This document shows positions 7,027 to 54,775 of a stretch of DNA of 64,000 nucleotides, piece after piece. The notes beneath the pieces were generated by a model. That model was not told the origin of the DNA. It saw nothing but the letters and a program-made list of their open reading frames with translations, and did no database searches. Position 1 is the stretch's first letter. Every line of letters starts with the position of its first letter. The translations under genes were made by a program, and so were the position numbers. Origin of the DNA: Streptomyces sp. WMMC500. GTDB taxonomy: Bacteria > Actinomycetota > Actinomycetes > Streptomycetales > Streptomycetaceae. The stretch lies in the NCBI RefSeq assembly GCF_027497195.1, contig NZ_CP114905.1, forward strand, positions 1,302,001-1,366,000. The letters run 5' to 3'.

Positions 7027-8415
7027 GTGCGACATCGTGTGATGCGGAGCCTGTCCAGGGATGCCTCCCTGCCGCTGGTCGGCGCGGCGGCTGGCCTGCT
7101 CCTGCTCACGTACGGCCTTGCCGCGCACGGCGATCTGGTCTCTGGTCTGCTGGCGTCGCCGGAGTCCGAGGCGGCTCAGGCGGGGGGTGACGGGGGGTGG
7201 GGCGTGGTCCCCCTGGTCGGGGCGGTCGCGGTCGCCGCCGCTCTGCTGCTGCCGCGCGGCGTGCTGCTGGCGGCGGCCGTCGTGACGGTCCACGGGCTGG
7301 GCACCAGCGCGCTCATGTCCCCGGTGGTGGGGCCGCTGCTCGCCAGCGACCTGTTGCTGCTGATGTATCTGGTGCGCGTGCCGGTGCTGCCACGCCAGGA
7401 GGGTCTGGGAGCGGCGCGCCGGCTCGTCGGCCCGTCCCTGGCGCTCTTCCTGGCCTGGTCCCTCCTGGCCACGGTCATCGCAGGGGCGTCGGCGACGCCT
7501 CTGCTGCGGATTGCTGTCTACGCAGCGGCGTTCATGGCAATGTCGCGTCGCGGTGCCACCGAGCGGCGGGTGGTCTACGGCGTGGTCCTCTGCTATGCCC
7601 TGGTCAACCTTGCCGGCGGCGTGCTTCAGGGGCAGACCCGCCTGGTGGGCCTGGACATCGGTGATCCGGCGCAGGCCGGGATGCTGCTGCTGGCCGCGCT
7701 GTGTCCCCTACTGAGCGGCGAACTCCGTTTCACCGGCCGCTGGGTAGTCGCCGCGGCGCTGCTGGGCGGGATCCTGCTGACGCAGACCCGCGGCGTGTGG
7801 TTCGCCGCCGTCGTCATGCTCGTTGTCTGGCGGATGCCGAGGCGGTCGCCGGGCCGGCTCGTCGTCGTCCTCCTGTGCATGGCGGTGCTGGGGTTCGAGA
7901 TCGTCGACTCGGTGTCCCAGCGTTTCGGACTCAACGGGGACAGCGTCGGATACCGGGTACACAGCGTCGTCAACGGGATTCGCGACGGCATGGCCAATCC
8001 CGTCTTCGGGAGCGGCTGGGGGGAGGTCTCGTCCATGGAGTACCTCAGGCAGCACCTGTCGGACACTCCCGAGGAGGTCCTGCCCTACAACCTGTTCATC
8101 AGCGTCTTCGCCTTCACGGGAGTCCCGGGCCTGCTGCTGCTGACGCTGTTTCTGGCAGTGCTGCTGATCTCACTGCGCGCCGCCCGCAGCGACGCCCCCC
8201 TGCTGTTCACGGTCGCCGTGTTGGCCATGTCCCTCTCCGAGATGACGCTCTTCGCCGGTTCCATGCTGACGCTGCTGTTCTTCGTCTACGCCGGCCTGTC
8301 CTTCGGCCGGGAGGACGACGCGCCGTGCGGTGACGGGCTACTCAAGGAGGGGAGTCCCCCGTCGATGGGTCGCGGCTCGGCTCCGCCGGGCCACGCGGCG
8401 GGGGCATCGCCCTGA
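7027..8415 (+). CDS. O-antigen ligase/polymerase-like membrane protein (Wzy-like)
   Basis: A polytopic membrane protein of about 463 residues with roughly 10-12 hydrophobic segments, e.g. LPLVGAAAGLLLLTYGLA near the start and FTVAVLAMSLSEMTLFA near the end. A large hydrophilic loop at about residues 300-350 contains GYRVHSVVNGIRDGMANPVF and GSGWGEV. This arrangement is that of Wzy polymerase/O-antigen ligase (Wzy_C) proteins, which join lipid-linked repeat units outside the membrane. GTG 7027 is chosen because GGTGGAGG lies four to five bases upstream; the frame itself is open from 6946. Its 3' end overlaps the convergent Wzx-like gene by 74 bases. WaaL-type ligation rather than polymerisation cannot be excluded. 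Confidence 0.82.
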   Translation: MRHRVMRSLSRDASLPLVGAAAGLLLLTYGLAAHGDLVSGLLASPESEAAQAGGDGGWGVVPLVGAVAVAAALLLPRGVLLAAAVVTVHGLGTSALMSPVVGPLLASDLLLLMYLVRVPVLPRQEGLGAARRLVGPSLALFLAWSLLATVIAGASATPLLRIAVYAAAFMAMSRRGATERRVVYGVVLCYALVNLAGGVLQGQTRLVGLDIGDPAQAGMLLLAALCPLLSGELRFTGRWVVAAALLGGILLTQTRGVWFAAVVMLVVWRMPRRSPGRLVVVLLCMAVLGFEIVDSVSQRFGLNGDSVGYRVHSVVNGIRDGMANPVFGSGWGEVSSMEYLRQHLSDTPEEVLPYNLFISVFAFTGVPGLLLLTLFLAVLLISLRAARSDAPLLFTVAVLAMSLSEMTLFAGSMLTLLFFVYAGLSFGREDDAPCGDGLLKEGSPPSMGRGSAPPGHAAGASP

Positions 8416-9796
8416 CGAGAGACCGCAGAGCGGCGAACCAGCCGGCGGTGCTGAAGACCACCAAGCACAGCGAACCCCAGGCGAAGGCGGCGGTCACGGC
8501 CGAGGCGCCGGACCAGCTCCGGACCGCGACGACCAGCACACCCAGCAGACCCAGGCCCTCGGCCGTCACGAACGCCAGCCGGACACCGGGGCGGCCCAGT
8601 GCCGACGGCAGCACCTTCCCCCACACAACCGTGCCCCGCAGCGCGGCTGCGGCCATCAGCACCACGGCGGGCGTGGCCAAGGCTGCGTACGCCGGGCCGT
8701 AGACGAGGCCTAGCACCGGACCGGACAGGGGAACCGCTACCACCACGCCAGCTCCACCCACGGCGGACGTCACCGCGCTGGAGCGGAGCGCGTCACGCAT
8801 CACCGCCGCGCGGCGCCCACCTGCGCGTGCCCGCGCCAGGCGCGGGTGAAGCTGCGCGGACACGGGGTTGACCACGCTGGCGAGGAGGCGGCCAGGCGCG
8901 GCGACGACCTTGAGGTACGTCACGAGTGTGGGTCCGCCGAGCAGCCCGGCCAGGAGCGAGACGCCGTTCTCGGCGGCCACGGCCACCGACGCGGTCACCG
9001 AACTCTTCATCACGAAGGGGACCAGCCCCGCGGGCAGCCGGGTGTCGTCCCCTCCATCCCCCTCCCTGTCAGCTTCCCCATCGACTCCGCCTCGAGGAAC
9101 CCCGCAGGCCCGGCGCATGTGGCGGCAGGCGTCGACGGTGAGCAGCACCGTTGCCGCCAGGCCCGAGACCGCGCCTGCTGCCAGGTAGCCAGACGGCCCG
9201 GCGGCCAGCAGTGCCAACAGCGTCCCCAGGCACCCGGCCAGGGCCATTGCCACGCGTATCCGGCCGAGCCGGGACAGTCGGTCGGCGAGGGCGTAGCCGG
9301 CCGACGCACTGCCCGAGGGGGTGGCCGTGCCCGCGGCCACCACCGCCAGCACCAGGAACGTGCCCTGCTCGTCGGGAAGCCATCCGGAAGCGGCGACAGC
9401 GATCGCGACCGCCACGCCGACGACCGTGGCCACCGCGCCCGTCGCGACGTCCACACGCAGCAACCGGTGGTAGAGCCGGGTACCCCGGCCAGGGCCGCCC
9501 CGTTGCGCGGCGGGTACGAAGTGCTGCATGGCGTCCTCCATGCGCGGGTCCCACACCAGAAACCAGACCGTCGCCAAGGACTGCGCGAAGAACACCTGCC
9601 CTGCCTCCGCCGGACCGGCGACCCGGACCAGCACGGCGGTGGTGACGAACGACAACACGGACTCGGCCTGGCCGGCGGCGCTGAGCGAGGCGAATGCGGC
9701 GAGGTGGCGACGGCGTGGCAGCCACGGGCGCGGGATGCCAGCTACTCGCGCCCACACAGGACGTACCGGAGCGGTGCCCGGTGATTCGCCGGGCAC
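8342..9796 (-). CDS. polysaccharide flippase (Wzx/MOP-superfamily-like)
   Basis: A 484-residue membrane protein with about 12-14 hydrophobic helices spread over its length. An early segment, LSAAGQAESVLSFVTTAVLV followed by RVAGPAEAGQVFFAQSLA, resembles the opening helices of Wzx/MurJ-type flippases of the MOP superfamily. A soluble insertion rich in Glu, Asp and Gly lies near residues 240-260. Such proteins move undecaprenyl-diphosphate-linked repeat units to the outer membrane face. The ATG is three bases after the stop of the UDP-sugar dehydrogenase gene, so the two are probably co-transcribed. Its distal end overlaps the convergent Wzy-like gene, an unusual arrangement for a functionally linked pair. 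Confidence 0.8.
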   Translation of the reverse strand: MPGESPGTAPVRPVWARVAGIPRPWLPRRRHLAAFASLSAAGQAESVLSFVTTAVLVRVAGPAEAGQVFFAQSLATVWFLVWDPRMEDAMQHFVPAAQRGGPGRGTRLYHRLLRVDVATGAVATVVGVAVAIAVAASGWLPDEQGTFLVLAVVAAGTATPSGSASAGYALADRLSRLGRIRVAMALAGCLGTLLALLAAGPSGYLAAGAVSGLAATVLLTVDACRHMRRACGVPRGGVDGEADREGDGGDDTRLPAGLVPFVMKSSVTASVAVAAENGVSLLAGLLGGPTLVTYLKVVAAPGRLLASVVNPVSAQLHPRLARARAGGRRAAVMRDALRSSAVTSAVGGAGVVVAVPLSGPVLGLVYGPAYAALATPAVVLMAAAALRGTVVWGKVLPSALGRPGVRLAFVTAEGLGLLGVLVVAVRSWSGASAVTAAFAWGSLCLVVFSTAGWFAALRSLVRAMPPPRGPAEPSRDPSTGDSPP

Positions 9797-9799
9797 GTC

Positions 9800-11083
9800 C
9801 TACAGCACCTCGACGTGCTCACCGCGGCGACACCGGTTGCGCGTGTCGAACACATACACCCCGGCCCGCTCGACGAGTGCGTAGTCGAAGGCGTCGTGGT
9901 CGGTGGCGACCACCACCACGTCGGCCGCGTGGAGCTCGGCCTCGGTCAGCTCGACGCAGGTGATGTCCTGAGGCAGCAGCGCGGGGTCGGTGTACGGTTC
10001 CACAGCGGCCACCCGGGCGCCGAGCCCGACCAGCGACCGTGCCAGCGCCAGGGCCGGCGACTCGCGGATGTCGCCGGTGTTCTTCTTGTAGGCCAGGCCC
10101 AGTTGCAGGACGCGGGAGCCGTTGACCGGCTTGCCGCGCGCGTTCAGTCCCCGGCTGATCCGTGCCACGAGGTGGTCGGGCATGGCGCCATTGATCTCGT
10201 TTGCAAGCTGGACGGTCCTGACGTCCCGTCGCAGCAGGCGCCTGACCTGCCAGGACAGGTAGCAAGGGTCGATCGGCAGGCAGTGCCCACCCACGCCAGG
10301 GCCGGGGCGGAAGGGCATGAATCCGAACGGCTTGGTCGCGGCGGCCTCGATGGCCTCCCAGATGTCCGCGTCCAGCGATCTGGAGACCATGGCCAGCTCG
10401 TTGACCAGTGCGATGTTCACGTGCCGGAAGGTGTTCTCCAGCAGCTTGCACAGCTCGGCAGTGCGGCAGGAGCCCACGGGCACGGTGCGCTCCACGAGGC
10501 GGCTGTAGAAGCGCTCGATACTGCGCAGCGAGGCGGCATCGATACCGGCGATCACCTTGGGGGTGTTCTCCAGGCGCCAGAGGGGGTTACCGGGGTCGAT
10601 CCGTTCAGGGCTGTATCCGAGGTGGAAGTCGGGGCCGGCCTGCAGGCTGCTGCCATCCTCCAGCAGCGGCCGCAGGAGGCACTCCGTGGTGCCCGGGTAG
10701 GTGGTCGACTCCAGGATCACGGTGGCGCCAGGCTTGATGTGGGGCGCTAGGTTCAGGCCCGCGCGCTGGACGTGGCGTAAGTCGGGGACGCCATCGCGCA
10801 GCGGCGTCGGCACGCTGATCGTACATACGTCGAAGTCGGCGGCCTTGTCGTAGTCGGTCGTCGGATGGTACTGGCCGGCGGCGAGCGCGGCCGCCAGCCG
10901 GGTGTCGCTCACATCTTCGACGTACGAATCACCGGACTCCAGGTGCTTGACCCGCAGCGCGTCTGTGTCGAGCCCGATGACGGTGAACCCGCATTCCACG
11001 GCTCGTAAGGCCAGGGGAAGTCCGACATATCCCTGACCGACGACCACCAGCTTCTGCCGCCTGCCCTGCTTGCCGCCATACAC
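9800..11083 (-). CDS. UDP-sugar 6-dehydrogenase (UDP-GlcNAc/ManNAc or UDP-glucose type)
   Basis: A nucleotide-sugar dehydrogenase of about 427 residues that oxidises C6 of an NDP-sugar to a carboxylate using two NAD+. The N-terminal Rossmann motif is VVVGQGYVGLPLALRAVECG. The catalytic Cys lies in GVGGHCLPIDPCYL, and the conserved central helix includes KLLENTFRHVNIALVNELA. The GGHCLPIDP context and overall length favour the WecC/WbpA-type UDP-N-acetylamino-sugar dehydrogenases over simple UDP-glucose dehydrogenase. The frame is open from 11152, but GTG 11083 with AAGGGG about nine bases upstream looks the better start. The product would be an acidic sugar for the polymer. It is divergent from the epimerase gene at 11303. 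Confidence 0.9.
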   Translation of the reverse strand: MYGGKQGRRQKLVVVGQGYVGLPLALRAVECGFTVIGLDTDALRVKHLESGDSYVEDVSDTRLAAALAAGQYHPTTDYDKAADFDVCTISVPTPLRDGVPDLRHVQRAGLNLAPHIKPGATVILESTTYPGTTECLLRPLLEDGSSLQAGPDFHLGYSPERIDPGNPLWRLENTPKVIAGIDAASLRSIERFYSRLVERTVPVGSCRTAELCKLLENTFRHVNIALVNELAMVSRSLDADIWEAIEAAATKPFGFMPFRPGPGVGGHCLPIDPCYLSWQVRRLLRRDVRTVQLANEINGAMPDHLVARISRGLNARGKPVNGSRVLQLGLAYKKNTGDIRESPALALARSLVGLGARVAAVEPYTDPALLPQDITCVELTEAELHAADVVVVATDHDAFDYALVERAGVYVFDTRNRCRRGEHVEVL

Positions 11084-11194
11084 AACAACCCACCCCTTGA
11101 AAGTAATATAATGCCACGAATCCCCACGTGATTTCCTTCGGATTTTATGCACGCGAGAGGCCCCAACTACTCAACCGGGAACCGAGGTTCACTC

Positions 11195-11225
11195 TTACTA
11201 AGTAACCGGATGCATTTCCGAAATG
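11195..11225. promoter_or_regulatory. two adjacent palindromes in a divergent promoter
   Basis: Two near-perfect palindromes lie close together between the divergent dehydrogenase and epimerase genes: TTACTAAGTAA at 11195-11205 and CATTTCCGAAATG at 11213-11225. Each has perfect arms around one central base. The surrounding 150 bases are clearly richer in A+T than the coding DNA, as expected for a control region. They are candidate operators for coordinated control of both polysaccharide operons. No specific regulator is recognised. Confidence 0.45.
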
Positions 11226-11302
11226 ACCGGGGTTCCATCTCTCCACCAGATGTGACAATTGGGTGACTCGACAATTCCCCAAGAGGGCGGAGTGGCTGCA
11301 AT

Positions 11303-12367
11303 ATGAATTACTGCACGACGTACCTGGTCACGGGCGGAGCCGGCTTCATCGGCTCTCATCTCGTCGATGGCCTGCTGGCGGCGGGCAGGCGGGTGGTGGT
11401 ACTAGACAACCTCTCCACCGGGCGCACGGAGAACTTGGCGGCGGCCATGGAGCACGGCGGATTCCGGTTCGTTCGTGGCTCCGTGCTCGACGCCGCGCTG
11501 GTGGATACGTTGACACAAGAATGTGATGCCGTGGTGCACCTTGCCGCGGCCGTCGGGGTCAAGCTGATCATCGAACAGACGCTGACGTCGTTCGTCACGA
11601 ACATCCGAGGCACCGAGACCGTCATCGACGCGGCGCATCGCCATGGCTGCGGGGTTCTGGTGGCGAGCACGTCGGAGGTCTACGGCAAGAACTCACACGG
11701 CGCGCTCGACGAGATGGCCGATCGCATCCTTGGCAGCCCGTCGGTTGCCCGGTGGTCGTACAGCACCGCGAAGGCCGTGGACGAGGTACTCGCCAACCTC
11801 TACCACCGTGAGCGGGGTCTGAAGACCACCATCGTCCGGTTCTTCAACGTCGTCGGCCCCCGGCAGAGCCCCGCCTACGGCATGGTCATCCCGCGTTTCG
11901 CCCACCAGGCGGTGGCCGGTGACCCCCTGACCGTCCACGGCACCGGCCAGCAGCGGCGCTGCTTCCTGCACGTTGCGGACGCGGTGGCGGCGCTGCTCCT
12001 CCTGCTGGACAACTCGGCGGCGGACGGGGAGACGTTCAACATCGGGGGTGAGGAGGAAATCACCGTCCTTGAACTCGCCGAACGGTTGATCGCCCAGGCC
12101 GGGAGCGCGTCAGTGGTGCGACAGCTCTCCTACGGCGAGGCGTACGGGCCGGGCTTCGAGGATATGGAACGCAGACTGCCGGACACCACGAAGCTGCGCG
12201 AGCTGACCGGCTGGCGGCCACGGCACTCCATGGTCGAGGTGATGGCGGCCGCCATCGCTGAGGCACGAGAGCAGCAGGACAGCTCGGAACCGGGGGATGC
12301 GCCGGGTGTCCCCGGTCGGCGAAGTTCGGCCCCTCCCTCGGCCCCGGTTGCGGAGGGCGGAAGATGA
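11303..12367 (+). CDS. NAD-dependent epimerase/dehydratase (GalE/UXS-like)
   Basis: An extended SDR of 354 residues acting on an NDP-sugar. The NAD motif GGAGFIGSHLVDGLLAAG starts near residue 11. DNLSTGR, the active-site STSEVYGKNS, the YxxxK pair in WSYSTAKAVDEVL and the RFFNVVGPRQSP loop follow in the usual order. C-terminal residues 330-354 are a low-complexity Pro/Ser/Gly tail. The GalE/UDP-glucuronate decarboxylase subgroup is likely. The reading frame overlaps the next gene by the four bases ATGA, so translation is coupled to the WecA-like transferase. Next to a UDP-sugar 6-dehydrogenase it might act on an oxidised sugar nucleotide, but that is not demonstrable here. Confidence 0.9.
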   Translation: MNYCTTYLVTGGAGFIGSHLVDGLLAAGRRVVVLDNLSTGRTENLAAAMEHGGFRFVRGSVLDAALVDTLTQECDAVVHLAAAVGVKLIIEQTLTSFVTNIRGTETVIDAAHRHGCGVLVASTSEVYGKNSHGALDEMADRILGSPSVARWSYSTAKAVDEVLANLYHRERGLKTTIVRFFNVVGPRQSPAYGMVIPRFAHQAVAGDPLTVHGTGQQRRCFLHVADAVAALLLLLDNSAADGETFNIGGEEEITVLELAERLIAQAGSASVVRQLSYGEAYGPGFEDMERRLPDTTKLRELTGWRPRHSMVEVMAAAIAEAREQQDSSEPGDAPGVPGRRSSAPPSAPVAEGGR

Positions 12368-28778: not shown

Positions 28779-29540
28779 AGTGAGCCTCTTCAGGGTTGCA
28801 GCTCCAGGGTGAGAACGGCTTTGGCGATTGACGTCATGCGGGTGGGGCTGCATCGGGATCTGCGGAAGACCCGCCATGACTTCAGGCGGGCAACACCGCG
28901 TTCGACGGGTGCCCGTGCCGCGGCCAGGGCCCGGTTACGGGTTCTCTCGGTGGGGGTGAGTTCCTGCAGGGGGCCTGCGTTTGATGCCCGTGGTGAGCCA
29001 GGGGCCGCCGCCCTGGTATCCGAGGTCGGCACGAGGGGAACGCCTTGGCGCTCGCAGATCCGGATGATCCGGTGGGTGCGGGCGGCGGTCAGGTCGTGGG
29101 TGCGGCCCGGCAGTGTGGGTGAGAGCCACAGCAGTCGGCTTCCCGGAGCGGTGACCACCTGGACGTTCACGCCGTGGCGCCGGTGCTTGTGGGAGTAGTC
29201 GGTGCGGCCGTCGCCGACCCGGTCGCACTCGGCAAGGGTCCCGTCCAGGAGGACGAAGTCAGCATCGTGGTCGCGTAGCGTCTTCAGCAGGCCCGGTGCA
29301 CGTGCGGCGAGAAGGTCGACGACCGTGCTGGTGTAGGCGTGTGCGGTGGACTCGCTGATGCGGAAACCCGCAGCGATCTTCGCCAGAGTGGTGTGCTCGC
29401 GCAGGTAGACCAGTGCCACCATCGCGCGATGAGACGGGCGGAGCTTGCAGCGCCGGTCTCATCGCGCGAGTGACAAGCAGCATGGTGACCCACTCGACGA
29501 GCGCATGCGGCAGGTCGAGTGCGGCAGGATGGATGACCAA
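28779..29540 (-). pseudogene. IS5-family transposase relic
   Basis: Reading leftward from TTG 29540: VIHPAALDLPHALVEWVTML, then after a shift near 29465 CKLRPSHRAMVALVYLREHT, TLAKIAAGFRISESTAHAYT, DFVLLDGTLAECDRVGDG and SHKHRRHGVNVQVVTAPGSR. After a second shift near 29035, GYQGGGPWLTTGIKR; after a third near 28975, APVERGVARLKSWRVFRRSR up to the stop near 28796. These are the helix-turn-helix and DDE regions of IS5-type (DDE_Tnp_4) transposases. At least three frame changes make it inactive. Its 3' 136 bases are repeated in inverted orientation at 33180-33315. Confidence 0.85.
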
Positions 29541-30241: not shown

Positions 30242-30820
30242 GTGACACACCGCAACACACGCACCGGGCGCTTCAGCCGGATTTCTCTCCGCGCAGGCGC
30301 CGCCGCCGGAGCGCTCGTCGTCGGATGTGCGGGCACCGCTGTGTCGGCCACAGCGCCGGAGGGCAGTACCCGGCCGGCGCAGAGCACAGTGTCGTCAGAC
30401 CGATCTGAGCAGGAGAGTGCATCGCCGCGGCGGACTGCCGAGAAGCGGGTCGAGAAATTCTACCGAGCCTACGTCGCTGCGCGGAAGCACGGGAACGACA
30501 GGAAGGTCGAGCACCTGAAGAAGACCGGGCTCACGCGTCACTGTGCCAAGCAGACCGAGGCATGGGGCAAGAAGCACGCAGGCGGCGGAGTGCTGGCCTC
30601 GAAGCATATTCCGCGGGTCGACTTCGTCCAGTGGAATGGCAACTGGCCCGGCGGTAGCGGCAGCAAGTACAACAAGCCCAAGTACAACGGCAAGTGGGCA
30701 AAGAAGCATCCCTGGGTGGTTGTTGCCCTGCGGCACAACGGTAAGCAGACCCTGCTGCCCGTCTCGTACGACCTGAAGGCGAAGAAGATCGGCATCATCG
30801 CCTCTTCTGCACGCAGGTAG
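30242..30820 (+). CDS. small secreted protein of unknown function
   Basis: A 192-residue exported protein. GTG 30242 has GAAAGGA upstream. The first 38 residues form a signal peptide (basic start, then AGAAAGALVVGCAGTAVSAT). A Ser/Arg-rich linker follows, then a compact basic domain with RVEKFYRAYVAARKHGNDRK, VDFVQWNGNWPGGSGSKYNK and HPWVVVALRHNGKQTLLPVS YDL. The Tyr/Trp/Lys-rich composition and the single-domain layout resemble small Streptomyces secreted proteins annotated as hypothetical. It is not clearly linked to either neighbour; a hairpin follows at 30885. Confidence 0.75.
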   Translation: MTHRNTRTGRFSRISLRAGAAAGALVVGCAGTAVSATAPEGSTRPAQSTVSSDRSEQESASPRRTAEKRVEKFYRAYVAARKHGNDRKVEHLKKTGLTRHCAKQTEAWGKKHAGGGVLASKHIPRVDFVQWNGNWPGGSGSKYNKPKYNGKWAKKHPWVVVALRHNGKQTLLPVSYDLKAKKIGIIASSARR

Positions 30821-31156: not shown

Positions 31157-31795
31157 TCACCCGACCAAGATTCGGACCCCGAGTGCCACCAGAACTACCC
31201 CTGTGAGGCGTTCCACCCAGAGACGACTCTGCGCAGTGGTGATGAGCCTAGCCGCGGCATGAAGAGCTAGTGAGAAGACACTCCACCACAGTACCGCGAT
31301 CGCCAGAAAGGTAACGGACAGCACGAACGTTGTCTGCGTTCTGGGTTCCGCCTTTCCGATGAACTGAGGTATCAGAGTGAGGAAGAGGAGCGCGATTTTC
31401 GGGTTGAGCAAGTTCGATATCAGTCCCTGGCGAAATGCCGTTGCCCTGGAGATCGAACACCCGCGCCTTCGCATGTCACCTTGCTCCGCGGCGCTGCGAT
31501 GTCGAGTCAGCGCGCTCTGAAGTGCCCGCCCTCCGAGATAAATCAGATAGACCGCGCCGGCGTATCGCACTGCGTCGAAGGCTCGCGGAGAACTGGCCAG
31601 GAGGGCTGCCATTCCGAGGCTTGAGGTAAGCGCATAGGCTGCGATGCCTGTGCAGCAGCCCAGCCCAGTCATCCACGCGACGCCGGTATTGGCGGACAGG
31701 CCGTTGCGCAGGATCAAGGCCATATCAGGACCTGGGGTCACTGTGAGCAGGAGAACGACACCCAGAAACGGCACAAATTGCTCAGGAGGATGCAT
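31157..31795 (-). CDS. LysE-family translocator
   Basis: A 212-residue membrane protein with six predicted helices, of the LysE/RhtB amino acid exporter family. The N-terminal motif FVPFLGVVLLLTVTPGPDMA includes the conserved TPGPD, followed by LGCCTGIAAYALTSSLGMAA. The central loop has FRQGLISNLLNPKIALLFLT, also family-typical. The gene lies 11 bases downstream of the aromatic amino acid hydroxylase gene and is probably co-transcribed. It may therefore export that enzyme's product or substrate. Base composition here is noticeably lower in G+C than in the polysaccharide region, suggesting transfer. Confidence 0.88.
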   Translation of the reverse strand: MHPPEQFVPFLGVVLLLTVTPGPDMALILRNGLSANTGVAWMTGLGCCTGIAAYALTSSLGMAALLASSPRAFDAVRYAGAVYLIYLGGRALQSALTRHRSAAEQGDMRRRGCSISRATAFRQGLISNLLNPKIALLFLTLIPQFIGKAEPRTQTTFVLSVTFLAIAVLWWSVFSLALHAAARLITTAQSRLWVERLTGVVLVALGVRILVG

Positions 31796-31806: not shown

Positions 31807-32691
31807 CTATCTTGACGAGATCTCACGCATGACCGACTCATCGGTTGCAGACACGCAGAAGTCACTGAAGAAATCTTCGAAGTGGCTGATCGAATCAGCG
31901 TGGAACAGAATGGGCTGGAAGCGGCTGTAATCGTAGTCGATGGTGATCATTTCACCGACATTCATCGACCGAATTTCAGCGCCCCGAAACTCGGCAAGCT
32001 CACCGCAAGAAGAAAGCAGACTCGCCCCGAATGCCTTCATCTCTCCCGATTCCTTGATCACTCCGTATTCCATCGTGAACCAGAAGAATCTGGATACGGC
32101 CTGGCGTGCCCCGTCGGTTTCCAGATGCCGGATGGTCCGGCCTAAAAGCCTGTATAGATCGGCAATTCTGCTGGAGGCCAGCGCCGTACCATGACCGATT
32201 ACCTCATGCACCATGTCCGGCTCCGGCGAGAATAGCGGCTTGGAGGAATGCCGAATGAACTGAGTTGCCAGAAAAGTTCCCTCTGCCAGCGGTCCGTAGA
32301 ACTCTGCCACGGGCACGATTCCAGCAGCCGGGGCGAACCGAAAGCCGGTGAGAGCTGAGAGCCGCTCCGAGACCGTGCGCAACTGGGGGACATGGTCGTA
32401 CGGGAGGTCGAGCAGCTCGCCAGCCTCATTCATCGCGGCGCATGCATAGGTGCGATGCCGCGTATGCAGTTCCTTTCGTATTGTTCGCCAGCATTCGTGG
32501 TCGTCGGGCGCGTAGCTCACTTCTGGCGCCGGATCGCCCGGCATATGGCTGAGTGCGGCTTTCAGGATTTCGTTGCGCCGCCCAAGATAGTGTGGATCTC
32601 CAGACCCCGGAAGCTCGGGATCAAGATGAACCACTGGTGCGCCCTCATCATTTGTCCTGACTGATGTGTCTTTCTGACCGTCCTCGAACAT
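31807..32691 (-). CDS. pterin-dependent aromatic amino acid hydroxylase
   Basis: A 294-residue member of the biopterin-dependent Phe/Tyr/Trp hydroxylase family, which uses Fe(II), O2 and a tetrahydropterin. The iron ligands are all present: His162 and His167 in PEPDMVHEVIGHG and Glu208 in FFWFTMEYGVIKE. FRFAPAAGIVPVAEFYGPLA and FLATQFIRHSS lie before them, as in bacterial PhhA. ATG 32691 is preferred to 32781 because AAAGGAG lies eight bases upstream. The reaction may be Phe to Tyr. Streptomyces also has a Phe 3-hydroxylase (PacX) of this family that makes meta-tyrosine, so regiochemistry is open. Paired with a LysE exporter; no pterin recycling gene (PhhB) is in the window. Relatively low G+C. 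Confidence 0.92.
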   Translation of the reverse strand: MFEDGQKDTSVRTNDEGAPVVHLDPELPGSGDPHYLGRRNEILKAALSHMPGDPAPEVSYAPDDHECWRTIRKELHTRHRTYACAAMNEAGELLDLPYDHVPQLRTVSERLSALTGFRFAPAAGIVPVAEFYGPLAEGTFLATQFIRHSSKPLFSPEPDMVHEVIGHGTALASSRIADLYRLLGRTIRHLETDGARQAVSRFFWFTMEYGVIKESGEMKAFGASLLSSCGELAEFRGAEIRSMNVGEMITIDYDYSRFQPILFHADSISHFEDFFSDFCVSATDESVMREISSR

Positions 32692-32855
32692 GCGGTGTGC
32701 TCCTTTGGGTCGGCGGCATCGCCATCTCAGGTTCAGCGGAAGGCTGCTTTGCTGTGGACCAAATGAAATGAGCCTGTTCAAAGCGCCATAGCGCGGCTAT
32801 TGTTTGGGCGCCAAGGCTTCAGTGCCTGGATACGCTTTCACAAAAGGAGCAGCCC

Positions 32856-33179: not shown

Positions 33180-33315
33180 GGGCACCCGTCGAACGCGGTG
33201 TTGCCCGCCTGAAGTCATGGCGGACCTTCCGCAGATCCCGATGCAGCCCCACCCGCATGACGTCAATCGCCAAAGCCGTTCTCACCCTGGAGCTGCAACC
33301 CTGAAGAGGCTCACT
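33180..33315 (+). repeat. inverted copy of the IS5 relic 3' end
   Basis: This 136-base segment matches the reverse complement of 28779-28914 with about two mismatches. It encodes APVERGVARLKSWRTFRRSR, then CSPTRMTSIAKAVLTLELQP and stop, i.e. the C-terminus of the same IS5-type transposase with its terminal bases. The rest of this copy is missing. Together with 28779-29540 it brackets 4.5 kb that includes the hydroxylase and LysE genes. Confidence 0.85.
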
Positions 33316-33333: not shown

Positions 33334-34863
33334 TCACGAGGTGCGCTCCCAGTGTTCGCTCTCATGCTGCCAGACCTGCTTCGCGACCGTGTAGGAGTCC
33401 CACTCGGCTTCGGCACGAAGGATCGCCCCGTCCGCCGCGAAGGTGAAGACCTCGGTGCCGGGGAAAGTCACGTTGGTGCCGAGGTACGACGTCGCGCTCA
33501 TGCGCCAGTTCACGCTGGCCCGCCCGCGCGAAATCGAATCCACGGTGTAGTCGGGCTCGATGCGCAGGAACGTTTCGAATGTGGACTCGATGAATACCTT
33601 CAGCTTGCTGCGTCCGACGAAGGGGCGGGTCCCGGCGATGTCCAGCAACATCCCGTTCACCGGATCGAACAGGGCCGTCCACGCGGCGGCATTCCGATCC
33701 CTTATGGCTCGGAAGTAGGCGTCGACTCGCTCACCGACGAGGGATTCGGGACAGTCCCCCGGGAGCGCCTCCGGAGGGTACGGGTACAGTCCGGTCGCAC
33801 GTTCGGCGGCAAGCAGCATCTCCCCGGACCATGCCCCGTACCGGAGCACGGCGACGAGGGCAAGGTCGTGACGGGCCTGGTTCAGAGCGGGCAGAAGCGG
33901 ACGGACCGCGTGCGTCGCCAGCCGCTCCACCTCTTTCCCCAGCGTGCCCCGGGTCTGCGTGCCCAGCACATCAAGCACCAGTTGGTAGTGGTGAAGCAGG
34001 AACGTCTGGCATCGTTTGGCCAGACTGGCCGTCGCGCGCAGGTAGCGGTACGCGGCCGGGTCAGCTCGCGGCTGGTCCAGCAAGGCGGCAAGAGAGGACT
34101 GGCGGCAGGCCAGGGCTTCCTGGAGCGTGCCGAGCAGCGCGCGGGGACGGCGCAGCATCTCGTGCGCCGCGCGGGAATCGGCGGCCGTGCCGTCTCTGAG
34201 CCGGACCCGGAGCGGGTGGAAGTCAGACGGCACCATGAGTTCCAGCATGTCGTTGTTCGAGGTCACCAACTCGACCGCACGGGCGGCCTGGTCTACATGG
34301 ACCGCCGCCTTCGACCAACTCCCGGCGTCGGCCTCGGCGGCGGCCCGGTCGGTCTGGTGCAACGCGATGCGCAGCCAGCACTCGGTGAACTGATGCACCG
34401 TGCGGAAGATCGGATCCTCCAGCTCCCGCCAGGGGCGCTGACACATCTCATGGACAGCTTCCACCTTGGCCCGGACATCCGGCGTCAGATACGGCCACCG
34501 CACAGTGCGCAGCGCCAACGTGATCGCTCCCGTGGCTTCCGCGGGCAACCTCCGGAGGATCGCGACGCCTTTCGCACTCAGAGGTGTCCGACGCTGCTGA
34601 GGCTCTGTGCAGCCGAGGTCGGAGGCTATGAGCGCGCAGGAATCGACCACACACTGAGTGATCCGACGCAGCCGCTCCTCCGGGCAGGATTCCGCACGGG
34701 AATCATCAAGGGTGTCAGCAGCCAGCCGCAGGCACAGTTCCACCGCCTGCAGCCCGGCGATGACGACGATCTGCTGCTTGCGCTCGTCACGCGCGGGCCA
34801 GGTCGCCCGAAGCCGGGGCAACATGACGTAGACATCGTAGGGAGATATGTCGACGGTCCTCAT
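33334..34863 (-). CDS. putative heme-dependent aromatic oxygenase-fold protein (Trp-2,3-dioxygenase-like) with C-terminal SnoaL-like domain
   Basis: About 509 residues. Numbering from this start, the section near 154-240 resembles tryptophan 2,3-dioxygenase: FRTVHQFTECWLRIALHQTD (cf. the FxxxHQxxELW motif) and MLELMVPSDFHPLRVRLRDG (cf. LExMxPxDFxxFRxxL). HHYQLVLDVLGTQTRGTLGK near 291 sits where that family has the axial heme His and GTGG loop. Residues about 375-505 look like a SnoaL/NTF2 domain: VDAYFRAIRDRNAAAWTALF, DYTVDSISRGRASVNWRMSA and EVFTFAADGAI. The heme-dependent aromatic oxygenase superfamily also includes tyrosine hydroxylases such as LmbB2. Assignment is by motif order only and is tentative. 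It is downstream of the GH/sulfatase genes on the same strand, with 122 bases between. Confidence 0.6.
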   Translation of the reverse strand: MRTVDISPYDVYVMLPRLRATWPARDERKQQIVVIAGLQAVELCLRLAADTLDDSRAESCPEERLRRITQCVVDSCALIASDLGCTEPQQRRTPLSAKGVAILRRLPAEATGAITLALRTVRWPYLTPDVRAKVEAVHEMCQRPWRELEDPIFRTVHQFTECWLRIALHQTDRAAAEADAGSWSKAAVHVDQAARAVELVTSNNDMLELMVPSDFHPLRVRLRDGTAADSRAAHEMLRRPRALLGTLQEALACRQSSLAALLDQPRADPAAYRYLRATASLAKRCQTFLLHHYQLVLDVLGTQTRGTLGKEVERLATHAVRPLLPALNQARHDLALVAVLRYGAWSGEMLLAAERATGLYPYPPEALPGDCPESLVGERVDAYFRAIRDRNAAAWTALFDPVNGMLLDIAGTRPFVGRSKLKVFIESTFETFLRIEPDYTVDSISRGRASVNWRMSATSYLGTNVTFPGTEVFTFAADGAILRAEAEWDSYTVAKQVWQHESEHWERTS

Positions 34864-34985
34864 AGGCACGGTACAGCCCCCCAGTCCGCGACGCCGGCGG
34901 CTCCCCCGCGCTTCACGGGGCTGTGTTTCTATACCACACTTTTCAGCCACTCCGGAACCGCCGCTGCATCGGGCAGGAGCCGTGA

Positions 34986-39655: not shown

Positions 39656-40702
39656 ATGACATTGTTCGAGCACCCCTTTGTCGCGGCCGGCTCCGACCGG
39701 TCTCCAGCGGGCGACACCGGGCGGCTGATCCAGATGATCACGGGCTACATGCTCACCCAGGTGGTACGAACGGCCGCCGAACTGCGCATCGCCGACCACC
39801 TCCACCCCCACGGAGCCACCGCCGCCCAAGTCGCAGAAGCAGGATCCCTCCACCCCGACGCCACCTTCCGGTTCCTACGAACCTGCGCCTCACTCGGCCT
39901 CGCCACCTCCCACGGCAACACCTTCACCAGCACACCGCTCCTCGCCACCCTGCGCACCGACACCCCCAACTCCCTGCGCGACCTCGCACTCTGGGGCGGC
40001 ACCGAATCACACTGGCTCCCCTGGGGCAGACTCACCGACGCCATCCGCACCGGCACCAACCAAACACACGCCACCCTCGGCGCACCCATCTCCGACTGGC
40101 TCCAAAGCAGACCGAAAGACGCCGAGATCTTCACCGACGCCATGACCGCCATGACCGGTGATCTCGCGCACAAACTGGTCGACGTAGTCGATCTTGAGGA
40201 CGTCGGGGTCGCCGTAGACATTGGCGGTGCCGCCGGAAATCTCGTGCAGACGCTCATGCAGCGCCATCCGGGGCTGGCCGGCGTCGTGCTCGACCTCCCG
40301 CGCGTGGCCGCCGACGCGCGCGCGTCGGCGGTGCGCTTCGGTGTCGCGGACCGGTTCAGCTTCGTGGGCGGCGACTTCTTCGAAGGCGTACCGCCGGGCG
40401 ACGTACACCTGCTGAAGTTCATCCTGCACGACTGGGACGACGACGCCTGCGTACGCATCCTGCGCAACTGCCGCAAAGCCCTCAGGCCAGGCGGGCATGT
40501 ACTGGTGATGGAACTCCTCGTCGACGACACGCAGGAGCCGGGCTTGGCCTCGCTGATGGATCTGAACATGATGGCGCTGACGGCCGGACGGGAGCGCAGC
40601 ACCGAGGAGTTCGCAAGCGTCTTCCAGCGCGCCGGCCTGGAACTCGTCGAGGTGACACCCTCTGCGTCCATGGTCTCCGTGCTGAAGGCCGTGCCCGGTT
40701 GA
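39656..40702 (+). CDS. SAM-dependent O-methyltransferase, copy A (Methyltransf_2 family)
   Basis: A 348-residue two-domain methyltransferase of the plant-COMT-like/Methyltransf_2 family common in natural-product pathways. Residues 1-100 form the dimerisation/winged-helix domain (GYMLTQVVRTAAELRIADHL, FRFLRTCASLGLA). The SAM domain has VAVDIGGAAGNLVQTLMQRH (motif I, about 182), FVGGDFFEGVPPGDVHLLKF and ILHDWDDDACVRILRNCRKA. The general-base His in the LHDWDD motif is present. GAGAGGGG lies upstream of ATG 39656. Its first half (39677-40125) is identical at DNA level to copy B at 53729. Codons there end in C to an unusual degree compared with the second half. Substrate unknown (phenolic compound likely). 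Confidence 0.92.
   Translation: MTLFEHPFVAAGSDRSPAGDTGRLIQMITGYMLTQVVRTAAELRIADHLHPHGATAAQVAEAGSLHPDATFRFLRTCASLGLATSHGNTFTSTPLLATLRTDTPNSLRDLALWGGTESHWLPWGRLTDAIRTGTNQTHATLGAPISDWLQSRPKDAEIFTDAMTAMTGDLAHKLVDVVDLEDVGVAVDIGGAAGNLVQTLMQRHPGLAGVVLDLPRVAADARASAVRFGVADRFSFVGGDFFEGVPPGDVHLLKFILHDWDDDACVRILRNCRKALRPGGHVLVMELLVDDTQEPGLASLMDLNMMALTAGRERSTEEFASVFQRAGLELVEVTPSASMVSVLKAVPG
39677..40125 (+). repeat. 449-bp direct repeat, copy 1 (O-methyltransferase 5' half)
   Basis: Identical by eye, base for base including third positions, to 53750-54198, both at offset 14,073. Similarity drops sharply after GACGCCGA in both genes. Such identity beside diverged 3' halves points to gene conversion or a very recent recombination. 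Confidence 0.9.
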
Positions 40703-53728: not shown

Positions 53729-54775
53729 ATGGCATTATTCGAGCACCCATTTGTCGCGGCCGGCTCCGACCGGTCTCCAGCGGGCGACACCGGGCGGCTG
53801 ATCCAGATGATCACGGGCTACATGCTCACCCAGGTGGTACGAACGGCCGCCGAACTGCGCATCGCCGACCACCTCCACCCCCACGGAGCCACCGCCGCCC
53901 AAGTCGCAGAAGCAGGATCCCTCCACCCCGACGCCACCTTCCGGTTCCTACGAACCTGCGCCTCACTCGGCCTCGCCACCTCCCACGGCAACACCTTCAC
54001 CAGCACACCGCTCCTCGCCACCCTGCGCACCGACACCCCCAACTCCCTGCGCGACCTCGCACTCTGGGGCGGCACCGAATCACACTGGCTCCCCTGGGGC
54101 AGACTCACCGACGCCATCCGCACCGGCACCAACCAAACACACGCCACCCTCGGCGCACCCATCTCCGACTGGCTCCAAAGCAGACCGAAAGACGCCGAAG
54201 TCCTTACCAACGCCGTGCGGGCCATCACCCGCAACTTGGCCCAGGAACTCGCCGATGTGATCAGTCTCAGGGGCGTCGGTGTCGCCGTGGACGTCGGCGG
54301 CGCCAGCGGAGACTTCATCCAGACGCTCATGCGGCGGCATCGCGGTCTGACCGGCATTGTGCTCGACCTCCCGCGCGGGGCCGCCGAGGCGCAGGCGTCC
54401 GCGGTGCGCCTCGGCGTCGCCGACCGGTTCAGCTTCGTTTGCGGCGACTTCTTCGAAGGTGTACCCCCGGGCGACGTACACCTGCTGAAGTTCATCCTGC
54501 GCAACTGGGACGACGACGCCTGCGTACGCATCCTGCGCAACTGCCGCAAAGCCCTCAGGCCAGGCGGGCGCGTACTGGTGATGGAGCTCATCGTGGATGA
54601 TGTGGCAGCGCCCGGCCTGACATCGCTGATGGACCTGAACGTCTTGACCCTGACGACCGGACGGGAGCGCAGCACCGAGGAGTTCGCAAGCATCTTCCAG
54701 CGAGCCGGCCTGGAACTCGTGGATGTGATGCCGTCTGCGTCGCTGGTCACCGTGCTGGAGGCGGTGCCCGGTTGA
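53729..54775 (+). CDS. SAM-dependent O-methyltransferase, copy B (Methyltransf_2 family)
   Basis: A 348-residue paralogue of copy A (39656) with the same domain order. Motif I is VAVDVGGASGDFIQTLMRRH. FVCGDFFEGVPPGDVHLLKF and ILRNWDDDACVRILRNCRKA follow. In copy B the LHDWDD motif reads LRNWDD, so the general-base His found in copy A is replaced by Arg-Asn, which questions ordinary O-methyl transfer. The first half is DNA-identical to copy A; the catalytic half is clearly diverged, with scattered identical patches. It is convergent with the VOC dioxygenase-like gene at 54832. Confidence 0.9.
   Translation: MALFEHPFVAAGSDRSPAGDTGRLIQMITGYMLTQVVRTAAELRIADHLHPHGATAAQVAEAGSLHPDATFRFLRTCASLGLATSHGNTFTSTPLLATLRTDTPNSLRDLALWGGTESHWLPWGRLTDAIRTGTNQTHATLGAPISDWLQSRPKDAEVLTNAVRAITRNLAQELADVISLRGVGVAVDVGGASGDFIQTLMRRHRGLTGIVLDLPRGAAEAQASAVRLGVADRFSFVCGDFFEGVPPGDVHLLKFILRNWDDDACVRILRNCRKALRPGGRVLVMELIVDDVAAPGLTSLMDLNVLTLTTGRERSTEEFASIFQRAGLELVDVMPSASLVTVLEAVPG
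53750..54198 (+). repeat. 449-bp direct repeat, copy 2 (O-methyltransferase 5' half)
   Basis: Identical to 39677-40125. The two repeats have the same orientation and enclose 13.6 kb that includes the conjugation-like genes, so homologous recombination between them would excise that segment as a circle and leave one hybrid methyltransferase gene. Confidence 0.9.

Follow-up and report, generated by a model that had tools for sequence, protein, structure and literature searches.

The 64 000-nucleotide stretch of Streptomyces sp. WMMC500 DNA analysed here (the window) represents 1.30–1.37 Mb of an 8.61-Mb single-contig genome (99.97 % complete), and contains a gene whose product appears to join a heme oxygenase-like core to a SnoaL-like module. 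The question raised by this locus is whether such a chain is a tryptophan 2,3-dioxygenase (TDO) with an added domain, an enzyme with one or two catalytic sites, or a sensor. The ORF at 33334–34863, on the minus strand, starts with an ATG at 34863 and encodes a single intact protein of 509 aa. An in-frame GTG upstream, at 34950, would add 29 residues and give an alternative form of 538 aa; in the homologue alignment the N-termini of the family start near the ATG form, not the GTG form. The ORF, and the order of three motifs quoted in a preliminary description of this DNA (residues 153–163, 206–220 and 291–307), were both confirmed. Three parts can be distinguished in the protein, and these and the residues considered below are located as follows.

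33334..34863, minus strand: gene of the fused protein, a single ORF; same domain order in 18 homologues including itself
34489..34863, minus strand: N-terminal helical domain, residues 1–125; Pfam PF07231 match at residues 5–81, helices in predicted models
33829..34488, minus strand: TDO/MarE-like heme oxygenase core, residues 126–345
34393..34395, minus strand: His157, distal His equivalent (MarE His55, CmTDO His72); HQxTECW aligned with HQTTELW
34207..34209, minus strand: Arg219, equivalent of the carboxylate-binding Arg (MarE Arg118), from profile alignments
33988..33990, minus strand: His292, putative heme axial His (MarE His201); His in 23/23 fused, 21/21 short and 10/10 TDO rows
33364..33747, minus strand: SnoaL/KSI-like domain, residues 373–500
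33715..33717, minus strand: Tyr383, KSI Tyr14 equivalent, in 22/22 rows
33640..33642, minus strand: Asp408, KSI Asp38 equivalent, in 20/22 rows
33451..33453, minus strand: Glu471, KSI Asp99 equivalent, in 20/22 rows

Compared with Pfam as a single sequence, the protein scores above the cut-off for SnoaL_2 and Hs1pro-1_N, slightly under it for Hs1pro-1_C and well under it for Trp_dioxygenase (PF03301, 15.5 bits against 34.9); the match to TIGR03036 is also weak and below its cut-off (34.7 bits against 390.7). When 18 homologues are combined in a profile, the solved TDO chain 2nox is matched with an E value of 9.1e-12. With hhalign, the fused family aligns with eight short stand-alone TDO-like proteins over 209 columns, the heme His included (E 5.9e-20), and with three TDO rows over 156 columns (E 8.4e-11). 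The best solved structures for the predicted model of residues 1–372 are MarE, TDO and IDO: the top Foldseek rows are MarE, then TDO, and the 50 matches listed by VIA-align are all MarE, TDO or IDO. The model includes the helical core with a lid helix found in these three proteins, a feature of the heme-dependent aromatic oxygenase (HDAO) superfamily, whose members are named in the available text of two papers as TDO, IDO, PrnB, TyrH, SfmD and MarE (PMC11791213; PMC11904535). The TDO-like fold put forward in the preliminary description is borne out by these comparisons, and structure prediction of both parts, the check proposed there, gave the expected folds by Foldseek. The sequence profiles and predicted models together support placing the core in the TDO/MarE fold, with His292, His157 and Arg219 in position.

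A search of 5.8 billion proteins yielded 18 with this organization including the window protein itself, the others being 31–65 % identical to it over the alignment. At E values up to 0.01, Pfam detects SnoaL_2 in all 18, Trp_dioxygenase in 16, Hs1pro-1_N in 13 and Hs1pro-1_C in 11. Two strict peptide patterns, compared with 84 980 species (one genome each), identified six loci, of which L002 and L003, judged by contig, correspond to P0002 and P0008. Fused genes were detected in 1/394 genomes of the class and 1/392 of the genus (the window's own genome both times), in 2/235 of a Myxococcota sample and in 1/301 of a Chloroflexota sample, all of these counts being lower bounds, with three to six candidates scored per genome. 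In 75 further genomes matched in the class search, every listed match is confined to core columns (up to 373) or to SnoaL columns (from 397), and none spans both. A search with the core only added eight entries. P0019, P0023 and P0024 have the SnoaL part, P0021, P0025 and P0026 end inside or before the end of the core, and P0020 and P0022, on contigs of about 1 kb, continue into unrelated letters that may reflect misassembly. No clear unfused family member was found in the full-length and core-only searches (8000 candidates scored in each), and a PHROGs search gave nothing useful for the fused protein.

A maximum-likelihood tree built from 53 core domains, L053 not being among them, separates the 22 fused rows from the others by a branch with support of 100/100. 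The TDO rows group together (100/99), with the short proteins on their side of the branch. The fused group spans Actinomycetota, Chloroflexota and Myxococcota, and its two deepest rows are L005 and L006. Since it forms one fully supported group, the fusion either predates the split between the copies of these three phyla or has travelled as a unit.

Residue counts for the core refer to an alignment that comprises 23 fused, 21 short and 10 TDO rows. Where a locus repeats another row (L001–L003, L008, L028, L035–L037 and L041), only its P or L twin entered the counts. L010, L014, L022 and L025–L027, which match the core too, were omitted from the counts and the tree. Either His291 or His292 had initially been proposed as the heme ligand. 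His292 is kept in all 23 fused rows, so the homologues do have a conserved His at the heme position, whereas His291 is a His in only 9/18 members and would not be the ligand. The distal His157 is present in each of the 22 fused rows with a letter at that column, in 21/21 short rows and in 7/10 TDO rows; L053 has a gap there in the aligned cut, and HQ in its full sequence. Arg219 is found in 22/23 fused, 20/21 short and 10/10 TDO rows. The partial retention of ELW and GTGG noticed at the outset was also seen, these reading ECW and GTLG here. Cys162, which replaces the Leu of ELW, occurs in 22/22 fused rows with a letter at this position; the GTLG reading follows the register of the 2nox profile alignment, and the multi-row alignment shifts the loop by one column. 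Two further residues are specific to the family, Arg223 (23/23 fused rows) and His216 (21/23, and present in a few short rows as well). In the genome's own TDO-family protein (L033, 4242453–4243262), and likewise in L030, Thr occupies the place of the distal His; in L032 it is Gly. In the Umezawaea copy, L007 (9990–11200), the frame is lost in the SnoaL part and Ser stands at the Arg219 column, which would indicate either a decaying gene or an assembly error.

TDO shares the distal His, the carboxylate Arg and the axial His with the window protein (His157, Arg219 and His292), as would be expected if the latter were an ordinary TDO with an added domain, making N-formylkynurenine. The solved TDO structures (2nox, 2nw7 and others) carry ELW, GTGG and SGFQS, however, where the window protein has ECW, GTLG and TAADS and, in addition, the extra domains; TAADS takes the place of the TDO loop SGxQS. 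The Tyr of the TDO N-terminal helix, which lines the pocket of the neighbouring subunit, corresponds in profile alignments to Pro128, a residue shared with P0002 in a column where 15/18 members have Tyr. The fused rows are separated from the TDO rows by the 100/100 branch, and the genome has a separate TDO-family gene at 4.24 Mb. A TDO-family match was present in all six genomes tested, that of G773 being the fused gene itself. The equivalog score of 34.7 bits also argues against an ordinary TDO, yet a genuine-looking TDO, L018, is likewise under the cut-off (286.5 bits). Taken together, this makes an ordinary TDO highly improbable. In the loop after Arg219, TAA replaces SGA in 3/23 fused rows, including the window protein. 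This change, with Pro128 in place of the TDO-type Tyr, alters the substrate pocket and indicates that the substrate of the window subgroup has probably changed, and that of the window protein is, on this comparison of sequences, probably other than plain tryptophan.

The short stand-alone proteins L009–L017, the nearest by profile, are not fused, and the branch that splits off the fused group leaves them with the TDO rows. They have an LGxGSG..S loop; the eight with a clear start are 235–277 aa long. MarE (PDB 9ca3/8vyy), a 2-oxindole-forming heme monooxygenase of maremycin biosynthesis, is 15 % identical to the window protein and, unlike it, lacks a SnoaL domain. The features given for MarE in the available text of its description are His55, Arg118, His201, Phe51, Tyr24 of the neighbouring subunit and the loops DATG and SLGGR (PMC11904535). 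The two loops are not found in the window protein, which has approximately DGTA and GTLGK in their place. What decides between dioxygenation by TDO and monooxygenation by MarE is left open in the portion of the MarE paper available (PMC11904535). HDAO enzymes leave a shared oxygenation scheme at different points, as TDO and MarE do, and a natural fusion with a second, apparently catalytic domain offers a way to test directly whether what becomes of the oxygenated intermediate can still be settled once it has left the heme site.

The SnoaL-like module reported earlier at the C-terminus is upheld by the SnoaL_2 match (PF12680, 29.8 bits against a cut-off of 27) and by a predicted model with the expected fold. 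For the model of the whole protein, pTM is 0.86, which suggests a defined packing of the oxygenase and SnoaL domains. The 50 Foldseek matches listed for this model are KSI/SnoaL-type and orange-carotenoid-protein structures, the SnoaL domain having taken up the listing. SalBIII (5cxo), an example of the KSI-fold epoxide openers of polyether pathways, is among the structural matches. In the KSI catalytic set, Tyr14 and Asp38 are kept as Tyr383 and Asp408, and Asp99 is replaced by Glu471. The exceptions are P0015, which lacks both Asp408 and Glu471, L006, which lacks Asp408, and L005, which lacks Glu471. The equivalent of KSI Tyr55 is kept in 0/22 rows and is Ile in the window protein, which further differs from the KSI/SnoaL-like family (1ocv) in that the latter is not fused to a heme-oxygenase-like core. 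Among other SnoaL_2 matches of the same genome, the Tyr/Asp/acid set occurs in 1/27 under strict scoring and in 1/16 near-full-length matches under loose scoring, the alignment of these distant paralogues being poor around Asp408. Alignment and predicted model support a KSI/SnoaL fold for this part, with Tyr383, Asp408 and Glu471 in the catalytic places.

Both TDO and MarE yield an oxygenated indole capable of opening or rearrangement, and enzymes of the KSI fold shuttle protons or, in polyether pathways, open epoxides. For these reasons the most economical reading is a cascade in which oxygenation is followed by acid–base processing: a bifunctional enzyme, in which heme oxygenation of an aromatic compound precedes isomerization or ring opening at the SnoaL site. 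The chances of this reading being correct are about even. In such an enzyme the core would bind heme and oxygenate an indole- or phenol-type substrate bearing a carboxylate, and the reactive product, an epoxide or a non-aromatic keto form, would be handed to the SnoaL domain. There, Asp408 would move a proton while Tyr383 and Glu471 stabilize the oxyanion, and the product could be isomerized, ring-opened or cyclized. The surroundings of two actinobacterial relatives count in favour of two steps: L002 is near genes for an NDP-hexose 2,3-dehydratase (a deoxysugar enzyme), an epimerase and an EryCIII-type glycosyltransferase, and L004 is near a GNAT gene and an NRPS. Fused genes may mark unrecognized biosynthetic clusters in some actinomycetes. 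Counted against two steps, besides the exceptions in the catalytic set, the absent Tyr55 and the want of a conserved gene neighbour, is the location of the deepest fused rows, L005 and L006, near signalling genes.

The chief rival to this two-step reading is an active heme oxygenase core combined with a non-catalytic SnoaL domain that serves in assembly or in the binding of substrate. NTF2-fold domains have such roles in other proteins, and the versatility of SnoaL/NTF2 folds, the loss of the catalytic set in P0015 and the absence of KSI Tyr55 are all in keeping with it. The retention of Tyr383 in 22/22 rows, and of Asp408 and Glu471 in 20/22 each, is not, and neither is the rarity of the set among the other SnoaL_2 matches of the genome; a non-catalytic SnoaL domain is accordingly considered unlikely, although it deserves serious weight. 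No published HDAO–SnoaL fusion was found in the open-licence full-text literature. The available text of two HDAO papers mentions no enzyme of fused type, and that of the first lacks the word 'fusion' altogether (PMC11791213; PMC11904535); in the part available of a paper on a hydrazine-forming heme enzyme, no link to the fused protein was seen (PMC12154649). This suggests that a two-step fused enzyme has not been described before in the searchable literature.

The N-terminal domain, for which predicted models show helices, is matched by only one Pfam family, plant Hs1pro-1. Hs1pro-1_N (PF07231, residues 5–81) scores 26.7 bits with the 509-aa form and 27 with the 538-aa form, above the cut-off of 25, and Hs1pro-1_C (PF07014) scores 27.1, below its cut-off of 29.3. 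The N part of this nematode-resistance-associated plant family (Hs1pro-1/HSPRO) is matched by 13/18 members and the C part by 11/18. The plant proteins are thought to act in signalling, and no SnoaL part is known in them. With IDO chains the alignment to the model starts at residue 1, with TDO chains only at about residue 125; the N-terminal region and core may thus have an IDO-like arrangement. Comparison of the core with the N-terminal domain for an internal duplication placed a helix in register, with E values of 0.03–0.06 and an hhalign probability below 2 %. It is possible, if somewhat doubtful, that the fused proteins constitute a new branch of His-ligated heme oxygenases, coupling oxygenation, within one chain, to a KSI-like acid–base site that processes an unstable intermediate, with the N-terminal domain and core as a bacterial, catalytically complete counterpart of plant Hs1pro-1/HSPRO. 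If so, the orphan plant family would be a relative of the heme oxygenases, and the fused family a sequence bridge from HDAO enzymes to it. In the open-licence literature, nothing relevant by title links Hs1pro-1/HSPRO with dioxygenase, heme or indoleamine.

The Hs1pro-1_N match also bears on whether the protein could be a heme- or ligand-based sensor, in the manner of Hs1pro-1/HSPRO, and not an enzyme. In L005 (Chloroflexota, 9084–12201), a PAS-STAS gene lies just upstream of the fused gene and a gene with a weak V4R/DUF2378 match just downstream, a sensory-looking setting, and in L006, STAS and FIST genes adjoin the fused gene. A sensor is nevertheless improbable: the full set of oxygenase residues is kept, the KSI residues are largely kept, and there is no sensor or STAS domain among the neighbours scanned in the window, L002, L004 and L053, the last of which has an adjoining M28 peptidase gene. 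L004 does have a helix-turn-helix gene, 1.9 kb upstream.

In the window, the order on the minus strand is a DUF4232 protein, a sulfatase, an arabinofuranosidase-like glycosidase and then the fused gene. The sulfatase and glycosidase are 28 bp apart, and the oxygenase gene begins 122 bp after the glycosidase. The preliminary description had placed the gene in an operon line with the sulfatase and glycoside hydrolase; the same-strand run is as described. For the window's sulfatase, glycosidase, DUF4232 protein, aromatic amino acid hydroxylase and LysE, however, no homologue was found by tblastn (E 1e-3) in the loci of seven relatives (L002–L007 and L053, 7.8 to 21.6 kb each). The 122-bp gap and this lack of homologues argue against a fixed operon, and an operon with the sulfatase and glycosidase as a functional unit was rejected. 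L002 does have an alpha-amylase gene 8.6 kb from the fused gene, but it is unrelated.

Beyond the fused gene, an insertion sequence (IS) remnant starts 18 bp past its stop. The end of an IS gene is present as two inverted 136-nt copies (98.5 % identical), at 28779–28914 and at 33180–33315. The right copy is this remnant, and the IS gene itself (DDE_Tnp_4) occupies 28790–29422. The segment between the copies is of lower GC content and encodes a LysE-type exporter (31157–31795) and a pterin-dependent aromatic amino acid hydroxylase (31807–32781); GC contents for the hydroxylase and LysE genes are 57 and 60 %, against 67 %. A joint pathway of the fused protein with this hydroxylase and exporter was rejected, on account of the intervening IS remnant, the inverted IS flanks and the lower GC content. 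L004 has an aldo/keto reductase gene about 4 kb upstream of the fused gene, and L005 has one 0.6 kb downstream; as this is a common family and the two positions disagree, it was not counted as a conserved neighbour. Apart from this reductase and the STAS-domain genes of L005 and L006, none of the neighbours scanned recurs in kind, and the relatives' loci scanned contain no conserved gene neighbour pointing to a pathway.

Small, secreted-looking proteins with weak similarity to each other (26 % identity, E 5e-7) are encoded near the fused gene at 30242–30820 in the window and at 7539–8000 in L004, in different orientations. Elsewhere in the window, two O-methyltransferase genes (39656–40702 and 53729–54775), 14 kb apart, are 90 % identical in DNA, rising to 99 % over the first 300 nt. 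Inspection of the intervening sequence indicates genes for an SLT/NlpC-P60 protein, a DUF6668 protein, a protein kinase and a possible ATPase, and this stretch is perhaps an integrated element. At the other end of the window, positions 1–21000 include sugar epimerase-, glycosyltransferase-, flippase- and chain-length-like genes, as recognized by inspection, and this region is probably an exopolysaccharide cluster.
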